NCBI GenBank assembly: GCA_014799955.1
Contig: JAAVHB010000108.1
Span: 1 to 35,035 of the forward strand
Reading direction: 5' to 3'
DNA length: 35,035 nt
DNA from: Butyrivibrio sp.
Lineage (GTDB): Bacteria > Bacillota > Clostridia > Lachnospirales > Lachnospiraceae
In this document: positions 6,491 through 29,363 of the stretch, one piece after another
How the letters are laid out: every line of letters begins with the position of its first letter
How positions within the stretch are numbered: the stretch's first letter is position 1
The notes under the pieces: generated by a model
What the model saw: the letters and a program-made list of their open reading frames with translations, nothing else
Told to the model about the DNA's origin: nothing
The model's database searches: none
Translations under genes and position numbers: made by a program

Positions 6491-7234
6491 ATGGATAACA
6501 ATAACCAGAATAACGACTACGGCAGTTACAGCGGCAAGAGCTATGACGCTCCCGATATTTCCGATAGGGGCGAAAACCAAAATAACGGCAGATACAATAA
6601 CGGCTACGACAGCAATCCAAACGGCGGCTATAACAGCGGCCACGATAACGGTCAGAACGGCGGCTATAACAACGGCTACGATAACGGTCAGAACGGCGGC
6701 TATAGCAACGGCTACGGCACCAGCCAGAACGGCGGCTATGACAACGGCTACGGAAATAACCAGAACGGCGGCTATGACAACGGCTACGGAAATAACCAGA
6801 ACGGCAGCTATGACAACGACTACGGAAATAACCAGAACAGCGGCTATAATGACGGCTATAACAATTATACATATAACAATAATGGGTACAACAACGGTTA
6901 TAATATGAACGGCAGCTATAACAACGGCTACAACAGTCAGCCGCAGGGCAACAAGGGAATGGCTATTGCCTCCCTCGTTATGGGCATCCTCGCTCTCCCG
7001 TTAGGCTACTGTACCGGATTTATGGGAATAATTCTCGGGCTTGCCGCGATTCTGCTCGGCGCCTTCAGCAAGGGCAAAGCGGCGCGCCGTCCCGGACTGT
7101 CAATCGGCGGAATCATTACCGGAGCTATCGGTCTTGTTATAGGTATAATTATGCTCTCGCTCGCAATCTACCTCATGACCAATCCCGATTTCATGGAACA
7201 GTACAAGGACCTTTTGGAGTTTTATAGCAAATAA
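6491..7234 (+). CDS. Asn/Gly/Tyr-repeat protein with DUF4190-like membrane domain
   Basis: The 247-residue product has two parts. Residues 1 to about 150 are low complexity, almost only N, G, Y, D, Q and S, including six copies of a 12-residue unit like NGQNGGYDNGYG. Residues about 156-230 contain two hydrophobic helices separated by a short basic stretch (SKGKAARRPG), the layout of DUF4190. The hydrophilic part is probably an unstructured, aromatic-rich cytoplasmic domain, but topology is uncertain. A strong GGAGGAA site lies 6 bp upstream. Its function is unknown. It is flanked by its own promoter and terminator, so it is monocistronic. Confidence 0.85.
   Translation: MDNNNQNNDYGSYSGKSYDAPDISDRGENQNNGRYNNGYDSNPNGGYNSGHDNGQNGGYNNGYDNGQNGGYSNGYGTSQNGGYDNGYGNNQNGGYDNGYGNNQNGSYDNDYGNNQNSGYNDGYNNYTYNNNGYNNGYNMNGSYNNGYNSQPQGNKGMAIASLVMGILALPLGYCTGFMGIILGLAAILLGAFSKGKAARRPGLSIGGIITGAIGLVIGIIMLSLAIYLMTNPDFMEQYKDLLEFYSK
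6647..6862 (+). repeat. Six tandem 36-bp coding repeats
   Basis: Six in-frame copies of a 36-bp unit encode 12-residue repeats with consensus (N/T)(G/N)QNGGY(D/N)NGY(G/D). Copies differ by a few bases, and the last two are the most diverged (QNGSYDNDYG, QNSGYNDGYN). Copy number may vary between strains through slippage. Confidence 0.85.
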
Positions 7235-22418: not shown

Positions 22419-23351
22419 TTACTCCGCAAAAAGAGCAGTCGAATAATATCTGTCGCCGCTGTCGGGAAGAAGAACAACGATGTTCTTTCCCGCATTTTCC
22501 GGTCTTTTTGCAAGCTCGATTGCAGCCCACACAGCCGCACCCGAGGAAATTCCCACAAGCACGCCTTCTTTTTTGGCGATTTCTTTTCCTAAAGCAAAAG
22601 CGTCGTCGTTATCAACCGGGATTATTTCGTCGTAAATTTCCGTATTCAGCACCTCAGGAACAAAGCCCGCGCCGATTCCCTGAATCTTGTGCGCTCCGCT
22701 GTGCCCCTCTGAAAGCACGGGCGAGGCTGAAGGTTCAACCGCCACAATTTTTACGTCGGGATTCTTGGATTTTAGGTACTCGCCTACGCCGGTCACGGTT
22801 CCGCCCGTTCCGACGCCGGAGACGAATATATCCACCTTGCCGTCCGTATCCTCCCAGATTTCGGGTCCCGTGTGCTCCCTGTGCGCCTTCGGATTGGCAG
22901 GGTTTTCAAACTGTCCGGCGATTATGCTGCCGGGAGTCTGCTCCTGAAGCTCCTTCGCCTTTGCGATTGCGCCCGGCATACCCTTGCTGCCCTCGGTAAG
23001 CACGATTTGCGCGCCGTATGCCTTGATGATGTTGCGGCGCTCAACGCTCATGGTTTCGGGAAGCACTATTATAAGCTTGTAGCCCCTTGTTGCCGCTATG
23101 GCTGCAAGACCGATTCCGGTATTTCCCGACGTCGGCTCGATAATTGTACCGCCCGGCTTAAGTATTCCCTTTTCCTCGGCATCCTTTATAATCTCAAATG
23201 CAACCCTGTCCTTTACGCTTCCTGCCGGATTAAAATATTCCAGTTTTGCAAGAATTCTTGCATCCAAACCGTATGCCGCCTCAAGATTAGCAAACTCAAC
23301 AAGCGGCGTATTTCCTATAAGCTCAGCCGCGCTTTTATATATTTTCGCCAT
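22419..23351 (-). CDS. cysK: Cysteine synthase A (O-acetylserine sulfhydrylase)
   Basis: A PLP enzyme making cysteine from O-acetylserine and sulfide. The Schiff-base lysine is in NPAGSVKDRVA near residue 47. SGNTGIGLA binds the substrate carboxylate, and VGTGGTVTGVG and GISSGAAVWAA contact PLP. The 310-residue length is typical for CysK. It follows metY by 24 bp with GGAGG. The two genes share the metY promoter, whose -35 box carries the TTCCTA-N9-TAGGAA operator, so the cysteine supply is probably regulated together with Fe-S assembly. Confidence 0.95.
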   Translation of the reverse strand: MAKIYKSAAELIGNTPLVEFANLEAAYGLDARILAKLEYFNPAGSVKDRVAFEIIKDAEEKGILKPGGTIIEPTSGNTGIGLAAIAATRGYKLIIVLPETMSVERRNIIKAYGAQIVLTEGSKGMPGAIAKAKELQEQTPGSIIAGQFENPANPKAHREHTGPEIWEDTDGKVDIFVSGVGTGGTVTGVGEYLKSKNPDVKIVAVEPSASPVLSEGHSGAHKIQGIGAGFVPEVLNTEIYDEIIPVDNDDAFALGKEIAKKEGVLVGISSGAAVWAAIELAKRPENAGKNIVVLLPDSGDRYYSTALFAE

Positions 23352-23375: not shown

Positions 23376-24683
23376 TTAAAGAACCGCCTTGAACGCCTCG
23401 TCAAGGTCCTCGATAATATCGTCGATATTTTCCGTTCCGATTGAAAGCCTTATTGTATTTGGCTTGATTCCCTGGTCGGCAAGCTCAGCCTCGTTAAGCT
23501 CCGCATGCGTCGTGGTGTAAGGATGTATTACAAGCGATTTTACGTCCGCCACGTTCGCAAGCAGCGAGAAAAGCTCAAGATTGTCAATGAAGTCCTGCGC
23601 CTTCTTCTGGTCGCCCTTTATCTCAAAGGTAAAAATAGAGCCTCCGCCGTTCGGGAAATATTTTGCATAAAGCTTCTGCTGTTCGGCATCTTCGGATACC
23701 GACGGATGGTGCACCGCCTCAACCTGCGGATGATTTTTCAGATAATCAACCACCTTCAGCGCATTCTCGACATGTCTTTCAACTCTTAATGAAAGAGTTT
23801 CCAATCCCTGTAAAAATATCCATGCGTGTATCGGAGAAAGCGTCGCGCCCGTATCTCTGAGAAGAATCGCCCTGATTCTTGTCACGAACGCCGCCGCGCC
23901 GGCAGCATCAACAAAGCTTATTCCGTGATAGCTCGGATTCGGCTCTGTAAGCTGAGGGAATTTGCCCGATGCCTTCCAGTCGAATTTGCCGCCGTCTATA
24001 ATAACGCCGCCTATCGTCGTTCCGTGTCCGCCGATGAATTTCGTTGCGGAATGAACAACTATGTCCGCGCCGTACTCAAGAGGTCTTACAAGGTAAGGTG
24101 TGGCAAATGTGCTGTCAACCACGAGAGGAACATTATGAGCGTGTGCGATACGCGCAATCGCCTCAATGTCCGTCACCTCCGAATTGGGATTTCCGAGCGT
24201 TTCAATGTAAACCGCCTTTGTATTTTCCTTTATAGCCTTATCAAAATTATTTACGTCAAGCGGGTCAACGAAGGTCGTTTCTATTCCGTAATCGACAAGT
24301 GTGTGCGCCAGAAGATTGTAGGTTCCGCCGTAAATGTTTTTGGCAGCCACGATATGATCCCCCGCAAGCGCAAGGTTCTGAATCGTGTATGTAACAGCTG
24401 CCGCCCCGGAGGCTACCGCCAGTGCCGCAACGCCGCCCTCGAGAGCCGCTATTCTTTTTTCAAAAACATCCTCCGTGGGATTTGTAAGTCTGCCGTAAAT
24501 ATTGCCCGCGTCCCTGAGTCCGAAACGGTCAGCGGCATGCTGTGAGTTTCTGAACACAAAAGAGGAGCTCTGATAAATCGGCACCGCTCTCGCGTCCGTC
24601 ACCGCGTCCGGCTGCTCCTGTCCTACGTGTAACTGAAGTGTTTCAAATTTTAAATTTCTTTCCGAATATGTTTTCTTTCCCAT
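23376..24683 (-). CDS. metY: O-acetylhomoserine sulfhydrylase
   Basis: A PLP-dependent enzyme of the Cys/Met metabolism family. It makes homocysteine from O-acetylhomoserine and sulfide and can also act as a cysteine synthase. LQLHVGQEQPD is the usual N-terminus. SATKFIGGHGTTIGG holds the PLP lysine. PYTTTHAELNEAE and GIKPNTIRLSIGTENIDD are C-terminal signatures. The 435-residue length is normal. It leads the metY-cysK operon, with a dispersed hairpin element in its leader and an AGGAG site. The homoserine it needs could come from the hom gene in this same window. Confidence 0.93.
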   Translation of the reverse strand: MGKKTYSERNLKFETLQLHVGQEQPDAVTDARAVPIYQSSSFVFRNSQHAADRFGLRDAGNIYGRLTNPTEDVFEKRIAALEGGVAALAVASGAAAVTYTIQNLALAGDHIVAAKNIYGGTYNLLAHTLVDYGIETTFVDPLDVNNFDKAIKENTKAVYIETLGNPNSEVTDIEAIARIAHAHNVPLVVDSTFATPYLVRPLEYGADIVVHSATKFIGGHGTTIGGVIIDGGKFDWKASGKFPQLTEPNPSYHGISFVDAAGAAAFVTRIRAILLRDTGATLSPIHAWIFLQGLETLSLRVERHVENALKVVDYLKNHPQVEAVHHPSVSEDAEQQKLYAKYFPNGGGSIFTFEIKGDQKKAQDFIDNLELFSLLANVADVKSLVIHPYTTTHAELNEAELADQGIKPNTIRLSIGTENIDDIIEDLDEAFKAVL

Positions 24684-24752: not shown

Positions 24753-24779
24753 TAATTCATAGTTAGTTGGTATGAATTA
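24753..24779 (-). repeat. 9-bp inverted repeat in the metY leader
   Basis: TAATTCATA (24753-24761) and TATGAATTA (24771-24779) are perfect inverted arms with a 9-bp spacer. It falls just after the likely transcription start, so it could be a second operator or an RNA hairpin near the 5' end. The spacing equals that of the operator upstream but the arm sequence differs. Confidence 0.6.
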
Positions 24780-24790
24780 ACATTGAAGCT

Positions 24791-24825
24791 ATATTAGCAC
24801 GCATTTCCTAGTATGTCAATAGGAA
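24791..24825 (-). promoter_or_regulatory. metY-cysK promoter with Rrf2-type operator
   Basis: On the minus strand TTGACA (24819-24814), 17 bp, TAATAT (24796-24791). A perfect inverted repeat TTCCTA-N9-TAGGAA (24805-24825) wraps around the -35 box. The same 21-bp operator is found at the iscS promoter (28881-28901). Binding would block RNA polymerase, so the regulator is probably a repressor. Confidence 0.8.
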
Positions 24826-24884
24826 TTTAGTAAATTTAATAAAATTTTTTTCCAAACTCGTACGCTTCCCACAGATGCCCGAGA

Positions 24885-25445
24885 TTACATGGGTTTCAGA
24901 TTTTTATTGAGCCGCTCCACCATCCAGGCGATTCGCTTTTCCCGTCCGGCATCTGTCTTTGCGTCAAAATACGCCCGCATGTAGGTTTTCTTTACCGACA
25001 AAGACATCGCGCTCCAATTCGTGAAGGCGGGCTCATATTTTTCCAGAATTGAGGACAGACAAGCGATTTGTTCCTCTGTGACCGCCACGAAATTCTGAGC
25101 GTCCCACTGTCCGTTTTCTTTGGCTTCCTCTATTTTCTTTCTGCCGAAATCGGTCATAAGTCCCCGCTCCTCAAGATTTTGAACCAATTTCTTATTTTTC
25201 TCCGACCACTTGCTTTTTTCCCTGCGCTGGGAAAAATATTTCTTATAAGTTTTATCGTCAATGCTCTGCATCAGTCCGTCAATCCATCCAAAACAGAGAG
25301 CCTCTTCAAGCGCCTCTCCCGCTTTTATTGTTTTCGGTCCCCCGGCTTTGCCAAATAAAAGCCAGACGCCGTCATCTGACAGGCAATGCTCATAAAGCCA
25401 TTTCCTGAATTCTTCTCTGTCTGCAAATTCCATTATATCGCTCAT
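24885..25445 (-). CDS. YdeI/OmpD-associated family protein
   Basis: A 186-residue protein of the YdeI family. FGWIDGLMQSIDDKTYKKYFSQRREKSKWS (shown as its start and end) and WMVERLNKNLKP at the C-terminus are typical of this group, whose function is not established. I start at ATG 25445, which has GGAGG at good spacing and overlaps the pcp stop (TGATG). A second ATG at 25448 is one codon upstream. It is the last gene of the iscS operon. No Fe-S or sulfur link is known to me, so it may be a passenger. Confidence 0.8.
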   Translation of the reverse strand: MSDIMEFADREEFRKWLYEHCLSDDGVWLLFGKAGGPKTIKAGEALEEALCFGWIDGLMQSIDDKTYKKYFSQRREKSKWSEKNKKLVQNLEERGLMTDFGRKKIEEAKENGQWDAQNFVAVTEEQIACLSSILEKYEPAFTNWSAMSLSVKKTYMRAYFDAKTDAGREKRIAWMVERLNKNLKPM

Positions 25446-26059
25446 CATGCACCTCCCGTTACCGTTACTCTTACCGCAATTTCAAGCGCTCTCACTATAA
25501 GCTCCGGCTCCATTGCCGGCGGCTTTTTATCCATACCTTCAATCTGCTTCGGAATACAGGGAACATGAATGAAGCCCGCGCGAATCGGCAGGGAATTGAC
25601 GGCAATATAATGCAGCGCCCCGTAAAGGAGACGGTTGCAGACATAAGTCCCCGCAGTATTGGAGACTTCGGCAGGAATCCCGGCTTCGCTTATGGCTTTT
25701 ACCATAGCTTTAATCGGAACCGTCGAAAAATACGCCGCAGGAGCGTCCGCCTCAATCGGAACGTCAACGGGTTTAAAGCCCTCGTTGTCCGCAATCCTCG
25801 CGTCCATAATGTTTATTGCAACCCGCTCTATTGTAATTGCCGCTCTGCCAGAAGCCTGACCTACGCATAAAACGGCGTCCGGCTTATGCTCTTTTATCGC
25901 ATCCGTAAGAAGCATTTCCGATTTGCCGAAAACCGTCGGAAGCTTGAGCTTTACAATGCTTGCCGTTTCCTCCGGAACAAAAAGAGCGTCAAGCGCCTCC
26001 GAGGACGAATTAACAGAATCGTCGCCGAAGGCGTCAAACGCCGTAACCAGTATCTTCAT
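25445..26059 (-). CDS. pcp: Pyroglutamyl-peptidase I
   Basis: A cytosolic cysteine peptidase removing N-terminal pyroglutamate (5-oxoproline) from peptides. LVTAFDAFGDDSVNSS is the N-terminal signature. The catalytic glutamate is in ITIERVAINI, the cysteine in NTAGTYVCNRLLY and the histidine in AGFIHVPCIP. The 204-residue length fits the family. It follows mnmA by 13 bp with a GGAGG site and is followed by the YdeI-like gene. Its role in an Fe-S operon is unclear. Confidence 0.93.
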   Translation of the reverse strand: MKILVTAFDAFGDDSVNSSSEALDALFVPEETASIVKLKLPTVFGKSEMLLTDAIKEHKPDAVLCVGQASGRAAITIERVAINIMDARIADNEGFKPVDVPIEADAPAAYFSTVPIKAMVKAISEAGIPAEVSNTAGTYVCNRLLYGALHYIAVNSLPIRAGFIHVPCIPKQIEGMDKKPPAMEPELIVRALEIAVRVTVTGGA

Positions 26060-26072
26060 TTCAAAAACCTCC

Positions 26073-27146
26073 TCATTCGATTACGCCGCCGCAAAGTATA
26101 CAGCCGTTGTTGTAGAACACCGCCGCCTGACCCGGCGTCGCCGCTCTCTGCGGCTCGTCAAATTCTGCAAGAATTCCGTCTTTCCCGGGACGGATTATGC
26201 AGGATGATTCCTTTTGCGAATATCTGAGCTTACCCGTGACGCGAAGCTCGCCCGACAGTCCGGCAAGCGCCATATAATTCACATCCGACACATATACCCG
26301 TCTGACCATAAGCTCCTCTTTTGTGCCGAGAACCACGGTATTTTCCTTCGGGTTGATGCGCAGCACAAAACGGGGCTCTCCGAACGCGATTCCGAGACCC
26401 TTTCGCTGTCCCACCGTATAATGCGAGATTCCCTTATGCTGTCCCAGAACATTCCCGTCCGAATCTACAAAGCTGCCGGGAACACTTTTTTGTCCCGTAT
26501 GCCGCTCTATAAAGGCGGCGTAATCACCGTCAGGCACAAAGCATATGTCCTGGCTGTCCTTTTTGGCTGCCACCGGAAGCCCCGCGTCAGCCGCCATACG
26601 GCGCACCCCGTCCTTATTGCAGCCCCCGAGCGGAAATAAGGTATGCGCCAGCTCCTCCTGCGTAAGAGAATAAAGAACATAGGACTGGTCCTTGCTTTTG
26701 TCGTCGGATTTCGCCACGCTGTAACGTCCGTTTTCCAGCGTTACGATACTGCCGTAATGCCCCGTGGCTATGTAGTCCGCCCCGATTTCCCTTGCTCGGT
26801 GCAAAAGAGCCTCCCATTTGATATAGCGGTTGCAGGCAATACACGGATTCGGAGTCCTGCCCGCATGATATTCTCCGACAAAATAATCTATGACCTTATC
26901 GCTGAATTCCTTACGGAAATTCATCACATAATGTGGGATTCCGATTATGCCTGCGACACGGCGCGCGTCCTCCACCGCCGAAAGCCCGCAGCAGCCCCCG
27001 TTTTCGGAGCTTTCCTCATAGCTTTCCTCCTGCCATATCTGCATGGTAACTCCGGTTACGTCATAACCCTGTTCCTTTAAAATAAGGGCTGCCACGGAGG
27101 AGTCAACTCCTCCGGACATCCCTACAACAACTCTGCCCTTATTCAT
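26073..27146 (-). CDS. mnmA: tRNA-specific 2-thiouridylase MnmA
   Basis: MnmA puts sulfur on U34 of Lys, Glu and Gln tRNAs, using ATP and persulfide from a cysteine desulfurase. The PP-loop is GMSGGVDSSVAA. The two catalytic cysteines are in NPCIACNRYIKW and KDSQDICFVPDGDY. The 357-residue length is normal. I start at ATG 27146, overlapping the iscU stop by one base (TGATG). The frame's TTG at 27149 is one codon earlier. Placement right after iscS and iscU suggests direct sulfur supply from IscS. Confidence 0.95.
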   Translation of the reverse strand: MNKGRVVVGMSGGVDSSVAALILKEQGYDVTGVTMQIWQEESYEESSENGGCCGLSAVEDARRVAGIIGIPHYVMNFRKEFSDKVIDYFVGEYHAGRTPNPCIACNRYIKWEALLHRAREIGADYIATGHYGSIVTLENGRYSVAKSDDKSKDQSYVLYSLTQEELAHTLFPLGGCNKDGVRRMAADAGLPVAAKKDSQDICFVPDGDYAAFIERHTGQKSVPGSFVDSDGNVLGQHKGISHYTVGQRKGLGIAFGEPRFVLRINPKENTVVLGTKEELMVRRVYVSDVNYMALAGLSGELRVTGKLRYSQKESSCIIRPGKDGILAEFDEPQRAATPGQAAVFYNNGCILCGGVIE

Positions 27147-27589
27147 CAATATTCTTCCTCCGGCGCCTCTTCCTTTTCGCCGATGTCGCTCACGGGCTTC
27201 TCAAGCCCCTCTATCTTTATTCCGTGTTTTTCGGCATAATCCCAAAGCGCCGCGTGTATTGCCTCCTCCGCAAGCAGGGAGCAATGCACCTTAACGGACG
27301 GGAGTCCGTCAAGTGCCTCCATGACCGCCTTGTTCGTGACCTGCAAAGCCTCGTTCACGGTTTTACCCTTTACAAGCTCCGTCGCCATGCTGCTTGTCGC
27401 GACGGCGGCGCCGCAGCCGAAGGTCTTGAACTTCACGTCGCGGATTACCTGATTCTCGTCAATATCCAGATACATCCTCATTATATCGCCGCATTTGGCG
27501 TTTCCGACCGTGCCTACACCCGACGCGTTATCTATCTCACCAACATTTCTGGGATTATTAAAATGGTCCATTACCTTTTCACTGTACAT
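27146..27589 (-). CDS. iscU: Fe-S cluster scaffold protein IscU/NifU-like
   Basis: A 147-residue scaffold on which Fe-S clusters are assembled. The three ligand cysteines are in GNAKCGDIM, TFGCGAAVATSS and VKVHCSLLAEEA, with the conserved Asp next to the first. MYSEKVMDHFNNPRNVGEI is the standard N-terminus. It is the NifU-N type without a Nfu domain and ends in an acidic tail (KEEAPEEEY). It lies 24 bp after iscS and overlaps mnmA, so the three are one operon. Confidence 0.95.
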   Translation of the reverse strand: MYSEKVMDHFNNPRNVGEIDNASGVGTVGNAKCGDIMRMYLDIDENQVIRDVKFKTFGCGAAVATSSMATELVKGKTVNEALQVTNKAVMEALDGLPSVKVHCSLLAEEAIHAALWDYAEKHGIKIEGLEKPVSDIGEKEEAPEEEY

Positions 27590-27613
27590 AATCTCAATTC
27601 CTCCATACCTTCA

Positions 27614-28825
27614 TTAACTGTTCTTGGGAAAAAGCCGCTCGTCCACAGCGGGCTTATCGGCGATAAAATCGGCATAAAGCGGCGACATGCTTCTGAGATA
27701 TTCGATAGTCTCAACCAGCTTATCCACCGTAAAATCAATGTCCTCCACTGTCGTTTTCTCCGAAAGCGTAAGCCTGAGAGAGCCGTGCGCTATCTCGTGC
27801 GGAAGCCCTATTGCCAGAAGAACATGGGAGGGGTCGAGTGAGCCCGACGTGCAGGCTGAGCCGCTTGAAGCGCAGATTCCGTTCTGGTCAAGCTTTATAA
27901 GCATGGATTCGCCCTCTATGAATCTGAAGCAGAAATTCGCGTTGTTCGGAAGACGCTTTACCGGGTCCCCGTTAAGTCTTGTGTACGGGATTTCCTTAAG
28001 CACCCTCTCAATAAGATGGTCGCGCAGCTTTGTTTCATACGCCATTCTTTCGTCCATATTCCGTATGGCAAGCGAAGCCGCCTTTCCGAAGCCGACGATT
28101 CCCGGAACATTATGCGTTCCCGCGCGTCTGCTTCTCTCCTGCGCACCTCCGTGCACAAAAGAACGGATTTTTATACCCTTGCGTATATACAGGAACCCGA
28201 TTCCCTTCGGACCGTTTACCTTATGACCGCTCGCGCTCAGCATATCGATGTTCTGCGCGTCTACATTGAGCGGAATATGACCGTACGCCTGAACCGCGTC
28301 GGTATGGAAAAGAGCTCCCGCCTCGCGGGCGATTCTGCCCAACTCCTCTATCGGCTCGATTGTTCCTATTTCATTATTGGCAGCCATAATTGTAACAAGT
28401 ACCGTGTCGGGACGAATCGCCGCCTTAAGCGTTTCGGGCTGTACGATACCGTTTTCGTCCACGTCAAGATATGTCACCTCAAAGCCGTGGTTCTCAAGCC
28501 ACTGACAGGTGTGAAGAACGGCGTGATGCTCTATTTTGCTCGTGATTATATGCCTTCCCTTTGACGCGTACGCCTCCGCCGCCGCCTTGATTGCCCAGTT
28601 GTCGGATTCGCTTCCGCCCCCGGTAAAATATATCTCGGACTTGGCCGCGCCGATGGACTCGGCGATTATTCCTCTCGCCTCGTCAACCGCCTTTCCGGCT
28701 TCGCCCGCAAATGAATATATGCTTGAGGGATTTCCGTAATATTCGGTAAAAAACGGCGTCATCGCCTCAAGCACCTCGGGATACACCTGAGTTGTTGCCG
28801 CATTATCCAGATAAATCGTTTTCAT
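27614..28825 (-). CDS. iscS: Cysteine desulfurase IscS/NifS-like
   Basis: A PLP enzyme turning cysteine into alanine and enzyme-bound persulfide for Fe-S clusters and tRNA thiolation. MKTIYLDNAATTQVYPEV is the N-terminal signature. The PLP lysine is in SASGHKVNGPKGIG and the persulfide cysteine in ICASSGSACTSGSLDPSHVL. The 403-residue length is typical. It heads the iscS-iscU-mnmA-pcp-ydeI-like operon. Its promoter carries the TTCCTA-N9-TAGGAA operator, next to the gene of an IscR-like Rrf2 regulator. Confidence 0.96.
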   Translation of the reverse strand: MKTIYLDNAATTQVYPEVLEAMTPFFTEYYGNPSSIYSFAGEAGKAVDEARGIIAESIGAAKSEIYFTGGGSESDNWAIKAAAEAYASKGRHIITSKIEHHAVLHTCQWLENHGFEVTYLDVDENGIVQPETLKAAIRPDTVLVTIMAANNEIGTIEPIEELGRIAREAGALFHTDAVQAYGHIPLNVDAQNIDMLSASGHKVNGPKGIGFLYIRKGIKIRSFVHGGAQERSRRAGTHNVPGIVGFGKAASLAIRNMDERMAYETKLRDHLIERVLKEIPYTRLNGDPVKRLPNNANFCFRFIEGESMLIKLDQNGICASSGSACTSGSLDPSHVLLAIGLPHEIAHGSLRLTLSEKTTVEDIDFTVDKLVETIEYLRSMSPLYADFIADKPAVDERLFPKNS

Positions 28826-28865
28826 ATTACACTTCCTTCTTGTTTTTGCTTATCTTTTCCAAATA

Positions 28866-28903
28866 AGTATAGCATATTTTTTCCTAGTGTCAAGGTAGGA
28901 AAT
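28866..28903 (-). promoter_or_regulatory. iscS promoter with Rrf2-type operator
   Basis: On the minus strand TTGACA (28893-28888), a 16-bp spacer and TATACT (28871-28866). A perfect inverted repeat TTCCTA-N9-TAGGAA (28881-28901), extended by one more T-A pair, covers the -35 box. It lies between the Rrf2-family gene stop and iscS. Both sequence and geometry match the site at 24805-24825. Confidence 0.82.
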
Positions 28904-28928: not shown

Positions 28929-29363
28929 TTATATACTGTAATTTTCGGAATTATTGTTCTGCCATTCAACCAAATCGGCAAGGGTTATATTGTCCACCAC
29001 GTCGGTAATCGCTTTGCCCAGCCTCGCCCAAAGCTCCGCTGTTGCGCAGTTGTCAATTTTCTGGCACGGAACGGGACACTCGTCCACACAGGGAACTGGC
29101 GCAAGAGAGCCCTCCGTCAGGCGCAGAATCATGCCGACCGTGTACTGGTCCGGTCTGCGCGTAAGGGTATATCCGCCCTGCGCGCCCCTGACGCTTCTGA
29201 CAAAGCCCGCCGAATTTAGTATTGAAATAATCTGTTCAAGATATTTGTCCGATATGTCCTGTCTTTTGGCTATATCCTTAATGCTGACGGGACGGGTCGC
29301 GCTGTTAATCGCGATATCAAGCATAAGCCTTAATGCGTAGCGCCCTCTGGTTGATACCTTCAT
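28929..29363 (-). CDS. Rrf2-family transcriptional regulator (IscR-like)
   Basis: A 144-residue winged-helix regulator of the Rrf2 family. MKVSTRGRYALRLMLDIA and the helix KDIAKRQDISDKYLEQII are the usual N-terminal features. Four cysteines lie close together in PCVDECPVPCQKIDNC, so an Fe-S cluster like that of IscR is plausible. CymR-type members lack such cysteines. It is followed by the iscS promoter-operator and preceded by DegV, 18 bp upstream with GGAGG. It is the obvious candidate to bind TTCCTA-N9-TAGGAA at iscS and metY. Confidence 0.93.
   Translation of the reverse strand: MKVSTRGRYALRLMLDIAINSATRPVSIKDIAKRQDISDKYLEQIISILNSAGFVRSVRGAQGGYTLTRRPDQYTVGMILRLTEGSLAPVPCVDECPVPCQKIDNCATAELWARLGKAITDVVDNITLADLVEWQNNNSENYSI

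Follow-up and report, generated by a model that had tools for sequence, protein, structure and literature searches.

A palindromic operator shared by the metY-cysK and iscS promoters of a Butyrivibrio genome points to a probable combined sulfur and iron-sulfur regulon of an Rrf2 protein

Predicted operators and operons in the window

We analysed a stretch of 35,035 nucleotides (the window; contig JAAVHB010000108.1) from a Butyrivibrio sp. genome of 2,779,293 bases (2.78 Mb) in 137 contigs (assembly GCA_014799955.1, here G000). The window carries a metY-cysK operon and an iscS-iscU-mnmA operon, the latter next to a gene for a regulator of the Rrf2 family, and the palindrome TTCCTA-N9-TAGGAA recurs at the promoters of both operons. 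The features under discussion, including those of iron-sulfur (Fe-S) cluster assembly, are as follows.

24805..24825: predicted operator O1 of metY-cysK, perfect palindrome TTCCTA-N9-TAGGAA, covering the -35 box
24756..24776: predicted operator O2 of metY-cysK, relaxed palindrome TTCATA-N9-TATGAA, in the leader just downstream of the -10 box
24791..24819, minus strand: metY promoter, TTGACA, 17 base pairs (bp), TAATAT
28881..28901: predicted operator of iscS-iscU-mnmA, perfect palindrome TTCCTA-N9-TAGGAA, covering the -35 box
28866..28893, minus strand: iscS promoter, TTGACA, 16 bp, TATACT
28929..29363, minus strand: rrf2, three-cysteine IscR-like regulator and proposed binder of the operators; TIGR00738 above cut-off, PDB entry 4cic the best structural match
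27614..28825, minus strand: iscS/nifS-type cysteine desulfurase (TIGR03402, 592 bits, cut-off 531)
27146..27589, minus strand: iscU/nifU-type Fe-S scaffold (TIGR03419, 208 bits, cut-off 188)
26073..27149, minus strand: mnmA/trmU-like tRNA thiolase, an open reading frame (ORF) named by eye; same cluster order in G001, another genome of the genus
23376..24683, minus strand: metY, O-acetylhomoserine sulfhydrylase family (TIGR01326, 625 bits, cut-off 495)
22419..23351, minus strand: cysK, cysteine synthase A (TIGR01139, 459 bits, cut-off 351)

A preliminary description of this DNA, made from the sequence alone, had reported that the window contains two perfect copies of the repeat, one at 24805-24825 and one at 28881-28901, with no further copy seen. 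Both were found at these positions and the window count was exactly two, whereas in 100 dinucleotide shuffles the mean was 0.01 copies and two never occurred (0/100). The copies were also said to lie over good TTGACA promoters, and they do overlap promoter-like sites, the two best in the region, both on the minus strand and both with a TG preceding the -10 box. The placement relative to the -35 box, described as identical, proved to differ by 2 bp: on the sense strand, the box begins at repeat position 7 for metY and at position 9 for iscS. The second copy lies between rrf2 and iscS, as described, and the names given to the Rrf2 protein, iscS, iscU, metY and cysK agree with the NCBIfam matches. 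The relaxed site O2, 49 bp from O1, had been overlooked. We also considered RNA-based control of metY or iscS and rejected it, because an Rfam search at the gathering threshold gave only two tRNAs in the window (minus strand, 205-293 and 415-500). In G001, the genes form a single run in the order rrf2-iscS-iscU-mnmA-metY-cysK.

The Rrf2 protein of the window

Membership of the Rrf2 superfamily was clear from TIGR00738 (136.4 bits, cut-off 73.3) and from PF02082 of Pfam (140.9 bits, cut-off 30). The NCBIfam equivalog models of the two best known subclasses were not reached, at 126 bits for IscR (TIGR02010, cut-off 207.55) and 139.1 bits for CymR (NF047409, cut-off 195). Because the TIGR02010 score falls under its cut-off, the protein is termed IscR-like rather than IscR. 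Its closest solved structure, 4cic, is entered as a BadM/Rrf2 regulator and is presumably the IscR of Thermincola potens.

The preliminary description had pointed to four close cysteines. In an alignment of 15 members, C92, C100 and C106 were invariant; C96 was common only to the protein of one other genus genome (G003). Three loop cysteines, at slightly varying positions, were present in all of the 80 best relatives (80/80). The window protein thus has the three cysteines expected of IscR in the loop after residue 90, and its gene is linked to iscS-iscU with an operator at that operon. The absence of the cysteine loop, a mark of CymR, was not found: the loop is replaced by a gap in 2y75 and 3t8r, the chains of CymR, as well as in the putative regulator 3lwf, whereas the window protein has both the loop and its three cysteines. 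A second mark of CymR, control of cysK and sulfur assimilation, does appear to apply through the shared operator, to judge from the predicted sites before metY-cysK in the window and before cysK/metY in related genomes.

Thus, the protein resembles IscR (Escherichia coli, PDB 4hf0; 4cic) in family, three-cysteine loop, adjoining iscS-iscU genes and an operator at the isc promoter. It differs in its cysteine spacing (C-x7-C-x5-C), in predicted targets that include cysteine and homocysteine synthesis, and in scoring below the NCBIfam cut-off. The operators of E. coli IscR probably differ in sequence from the operator described here. The recognition helix contains E43, as does that of E. coli IscR (PMC9338935). 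With CymR (Bacillus subtilis and Staphylococcus aureus; PDB 2y75 and 3t8r) the protein shares the family and, by prediction, the control of cysK and sulfur assimilation; unlike the window protein, CymR is gapped at the cysteine loop, and the window protein lies below the NCBIfam CymR cut-off. CymR of B. subtilis reportedly binds no cluster (PMC9338935).

Distribution of the motif

In the source genome, the perfect motif has three copies in total. The third, inside a 304-amino-acid (aa) reading frame on contig C129 (locus L003), and a similar copy in G001 (L106) were set aside, as both lie inside coding frames. Frequency outside promoters, which the preliminary description had named as a point to check, was low: the seven degenerate matches in the genome comprise the three window sites, three sites in ORFs and one intergenic site, which precedes a lipase/esterase-like gene. 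A profile (R1) was trained on 43 sites, including sites of the five genus genomes, so that the scores of those sites are not independent. In a genome scan that scored 150 of 1,629 first-look candidates, R1 gave the three window sites 26.5, 20.0 and 17.0 bits. The highest value, that of O1, which belongs to the training set, was the top listed place in the genome, and the next listed place after the window sites reached 11.5 bits (E value 1.6).

All five genomes of the genus (G000 to G004) carry an O1-type palindrome over TTGACA at metY and an O2-type palindrome 49-50 bp further on, O1 of G003 being weakened to 10 of 12 positions. Sites at iscS and/or rrf2 also occur in 5/5; the iscS repeats of G003 and G004 are identical to that of the window, and in G001 near-perfect sites precede both iscS and rrf2. 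For G001 and G002 we considered places of at least 18 bits, together with the iscS site of G001 (16.4 bits with R1). Such places in G001 are found upstream of metY (two), rrf2, a MetB-like gene and an HD-type gene with a ThiF-like gene downstream; those in G002 are upstream of metY (two), rrf2, a metN-like gene and an SGNH-like gene with a MetB-like gene downstream (HD, ThiF, SGNH, the G001 MetB-like and the G002 metN-like labels were assigned by eye). The G001 MetB-like and HD/ThiF sites and the G002 metN-like site lie outside the R1 training set. The strong operator before the HD-type gene and the ThiF-like gene after it (L310, site 1505), the latter by eye possibly related to TcdA/CsdL, may mark a further regulon member.

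Conservation in relatives, another point raised in the preliminary description, was examined in the best 80 of at least 570 confirmed Rrf2 relatives, a sample that favours close relatives and is composed mostly of Lachnospiraceae, with Eubacteriaceae and Intestinibacter. The motif was kept, chiefly before rrf2, iscS, metY and cysK. Matches of at least 10 of 12 positions of the relaxed pattern occurred within 150 bp before rrf2 in 52/80 loci versus 44/710 other genes, with about 3/80 in shuffles and 5/80 for the reversed pattern; at 11 or more positions, the counts were 25/80 and 13/710. The 710 other genes exclude those starting less than 1.8 kb from rrf2, and the counts ignore relatedness. 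The presence of a site before rrf2 in 52 of the 80 relatives ties the motif to the Rrf2 protein.

Near-perfect sites (11 or 12 positions) in the 80 loci numbered 59 in intergenic DNA, and 55 of them precede rrf2 (22), metY (14), cysK (12) or iscS (7); the four counted as other include one just before rrf2 (L036, site 7905). A further 15 near-perfect matches lie inside reading frames. Two loci, L019 and L029, again have tandem sites at metY, with spacings of 48 and 52 bp. Within 5 kb of rrf2, cysK was found in 31/80 loci, iscS in 20/80 and metY in 14/80; 28/80 loci, some on short contigs, have none of the tested genes nearby. Members linked to iscS and members linked to cysK/metY are interspersed on the tree, in which many forks are weak.

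In a survey of 150 genomes of the family, 74 perfect sites were found in 52 genomes. Context was examined for 70, setting aside the three of the source genome and one of G002 (metY): 40 are intergenic and 30 lie in frames of at least 100 aa. Twenty-two of the 40 intergenic sites precede iscS (10), cysK (7), metY (4) or rrf2 (1), and a further five lie upstream of sufC (one), metN-like genes (two), a glutamate-cysteine-ligase-like gene (one) and an operon with a MetB-like gene in second place (one). These further targets occur in single species of the wider family, and their names, sufC excepted, rest on matches below curated cut-offs. Sulfur or Fe-S genes are thus downstream of 27/40 intergenic sites, which gives good comparative support to the sulfur/Fe-S regulon with a shared operator that the preliminary description had proposed. 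A reversed control, AAGGAT-N9-ATCCTT, matched 85/150 genomes, and all 30 of its loci given were examined; 29 sites lie inside frames and the single intergenic one precedes an unnamed gene. The motif is therefore no commoner than its reversed control but is placed differently.

Interpretation and alternatives

Because the same operator precedes sulfur and Fe-S genes here and in many relatives, one regulator of the iron-sulfur type probably controls both the cysteine/homocysteine and the Fe-S cluster supplies. We put at about 0.8 the probability that the repeat is the operator of the adjoining IscR-like Rrf2 protein and joins targets of the IscR and CymR types. The sequences themselves establish the sites and their conservation, the genes that they precede, a placement before rrf2 in many relatives that suits autoregulation, and the conserved cysteines; binding, the cluster, repression and the signal are elements of this reading that we infer.

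In the mechanism proposed, an Rrf2 homodimer would bind the 21-bp palindrome (A)TTCMTA-N9-TAKGAA(T), which spans the -35 box at metY-cysK as well as at iscS-iscU-mnmA, and at metY a second dimer would occupy O2, just past the -10 box and the start point. Bound Rrf2 would exclude RNA polymerase and thereby repress both operons. The three cysteines are probably ligands of an Fe-S cluster, and the degree of its occupancy would report the Fe-S supply and, indirectly, that of cysteine; as the cysteines are of the IscR type, cluster occupancy is the likely signal. Shortage of cysteine, iron or Fe-S would lead to cluster loss and derepression, which would raise cysteine/homocysteine synthesis and cluster assembly together. 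Published data agree with this reading: in Clostridium perfringens, rrf2-iscS-iscU-trmU is up about 3-7-fold under cysteine limitation (PMC2940859), and in Clostridioides difficile both cysK-cysE and iscR-iscS2-iscU increase with glucose (PMC3510511).

For Lachnospiraceae and near relatives, we lean towards a broader view in which a single three-cysteine Rrf2 protein runs a merged regulon, whose parts Bacillus and E. coli assign to CymR and IscR separately. Fe-S occupancy would then serve as a gauge of cysteine, one operator would set cysK, metY, metN, MetB-like, isc, suf and glutamate-cysteine ligase genes, and the tandem operator would tighten control of metY.

Several observations weigh against the Rrf2 protein as regulator of both operons. 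The rrf2 gene of the window has no site of its own, the maximum score outside the three sites being 7.4 bits, and 28/80 relatives lack a site of at least 10 positions before rrf2. In G002, a site precedes rrf2 and none precedes iscS. The R1 genome scan scored 150 of 1,629 first-look candidates, and no convincing further regulon member of the source genome was found among those scored. Perfect sites were absent from 98/150 family genomes, and the reversed control matched more genomes than the motif (85/150 versus 52/150); raw motif counts by themselves give no support and were not used as evidence. In addition, 10/40 intergenic perfect sites have no evident link to sulfur or iron, one intergenic site (L211, 1501) precedes a formate C-acetyltransferase gene, and a second Rrf2 protein of the source genome, encoded on contig C50, also has three loop cysteines and may take some part in the regulation.

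An alternative that we consider unlikely is that the Rrf2 protein binds the same operators and works like CymR, sensing cysteine through a complex of CysK with O-acetylserine, with its cysteines serving as structural residues or redox switches instead of holding a cluster. CymR of B. subtilis does act through CysK and O-acetylserine (PMC3828012), the CymR model outscores the IscR model for the window protein (139 vs 126 bits, both below cut-off), and CysK is encoded within the regulated operon, a cysK gene being found no more than 5 kb from rrf2 in 31/80 relatives. However, the loop that is missing from CymR chains 2y75 and 3t8r is the one bearing the cysteines, and C92, C100 and C106 are invariant in the 15 aligned members, with three loop cysteines in 80/80 relatives.

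It is more doubtful still that two regulators share one motif, the window Rrf2 protein acting at iscS and the C50 paralog at metY-cysK. The source genome does have two Rrf2 genes over the Pfam cut-off, that of the window and that of C50, and the paralog, besides its three loop cysteines, has a similar recognition helix and 51% identity. In Clostridium acetobutylicum, moreover, a CymR-like protein occurs together with an IscR-like one, and their motifs resemble each other (PMC3828012). The paralog gene lies beside a cystine-type transporter, but on its 7.6-kb contig no site reaches 11 of the 12 positions, so the paralog may use another site.

Genomes with a single Rrf2 gene also argue against this division of labour. 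Rrf2 genes were counted in 30 picked genomes, namely all five genus genomes and 25 others, most of which have intergenic sites, and ten had a single match over the cut-off (G001, G002, G006, G058, G064, G073, G114, G143, G158 and G169, by eye). G001 and G002 have one match each, yet keep two metY sites each. A perfect site precedes a sulfur or Fe-S gene in 8/10 (G002 metY, G006 glutamate-cysteine-ligase-like, G058 cysK, G064 metY, G073 iscS, G114 iscS, G143 sufC, G169 iscS); as the sample was picked for having sites, the seven beyond G002 show occurrence and give no rate. Of the remaining two, G001 has near-perfect sites and G158 none before a sulfur or Fe-S gene. A second Rrf2 protein is therefore unnecessary to explain the sites.

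That the repeats arose by chance is very unlikely, and that they belong to an unrelated factor is improbable; in either case their overlap with good promoters would be coincidental. Although the motif count is not above that of the reversed control (52/150 vs 85/150 genomes), chance was rejected in view of the shuffles, of the control sites lying inside genes (29/30) while 40/70 motif sites are intergenic, and of gene context, with 27 sites before sulfur or Fe-S genes and 55/59 near-perfect intergenic sites of the 80 loci before rrf2, metY, cysK or iscS.

Rrf2 regulons of this kind are already known, and the IscR and CymR regulogs of RegPrecise are likewise regulons from comparative genomics. 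IscR and CymR motifs are reportedly alike in Clostridia, and C. acetobutylicum, whose CAC1675 RegPrecise classes as IscR, has one protein of each kind (PMC3828012); the 2013 Clostridiaceae collection comprises seven regulogs in 20 genomes (PMC3840689). CPE1786 of C. perfringens (rrf2-iscS-iscU-trmU) has the same gene order as the window and was presented as a candidate regulator of Fe-S biogenesis at a locus induced in cysteine limitation; unlike in the window, cysK has a T-box in that species, and the available portions of the paper do not mention a shared Rrf2 operator (PMC2940859). A 2026 preprint links another Lachnospiraceae Rrf2 protein to oxygen detoxification (PMC13404960). Among the papers listed in a literature search that did not extend to RegPrecise or to subscription papers, we found no description of the operator or of a merged regulon in Lachnospiraceae. 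Two features seem new: one operator brings together a cluster-type sensor and CymR-type targets throughout the family, and the tandem arrangement at metY is conserved.

Anaerobic gut Clostridia rely heavily on Fe-S enzymes, and the sulfur of Fe-S clusters usually comes from cysteine; to our knowledge, there are few descriptions of the way in which these bacteria couple the two supplies. With a defined operator, a defined candidate sensor and species that carry a single Rrf2 gene, a sharp test becomes possible between cluster occupancy and CysK/O-acetylserine as the signal that sets cysteine synthesis, and the operator motif would serve to predict sulfur regulons in many gut genomes.

Some minor observations were made alongside. 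On contig C50 (L178, 563-994 and 1214-5462), the Rrf2 paralog gene has a LysR-type gene and an ABC transporter for amino acids (cystine-type) as neighbours, and an incomplete MetB-like gene stands at the end of the contig. In the family survey, perfect operators also precede a ferritin-like gene (L197, 1501) and a thioredoxin-reductase-like gene (L239, 1492); together with the L211 site, these suggest that in some species the regulon may include genes for iron, redox and radical-enzyme functions. The names of these three genes, too, come from matches under the curated cut-offs. Between mnmA and metY, which adjoin in G001, the window has pyrrolidone-carboxylate-peptidase-like and YdeI-like ORFs (24885-26059, by eye). 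A further ORF at 6491-7234 encodes a long repeat stretch rich in Asn, Gly and Tyr, followed by a hydrophobic end.

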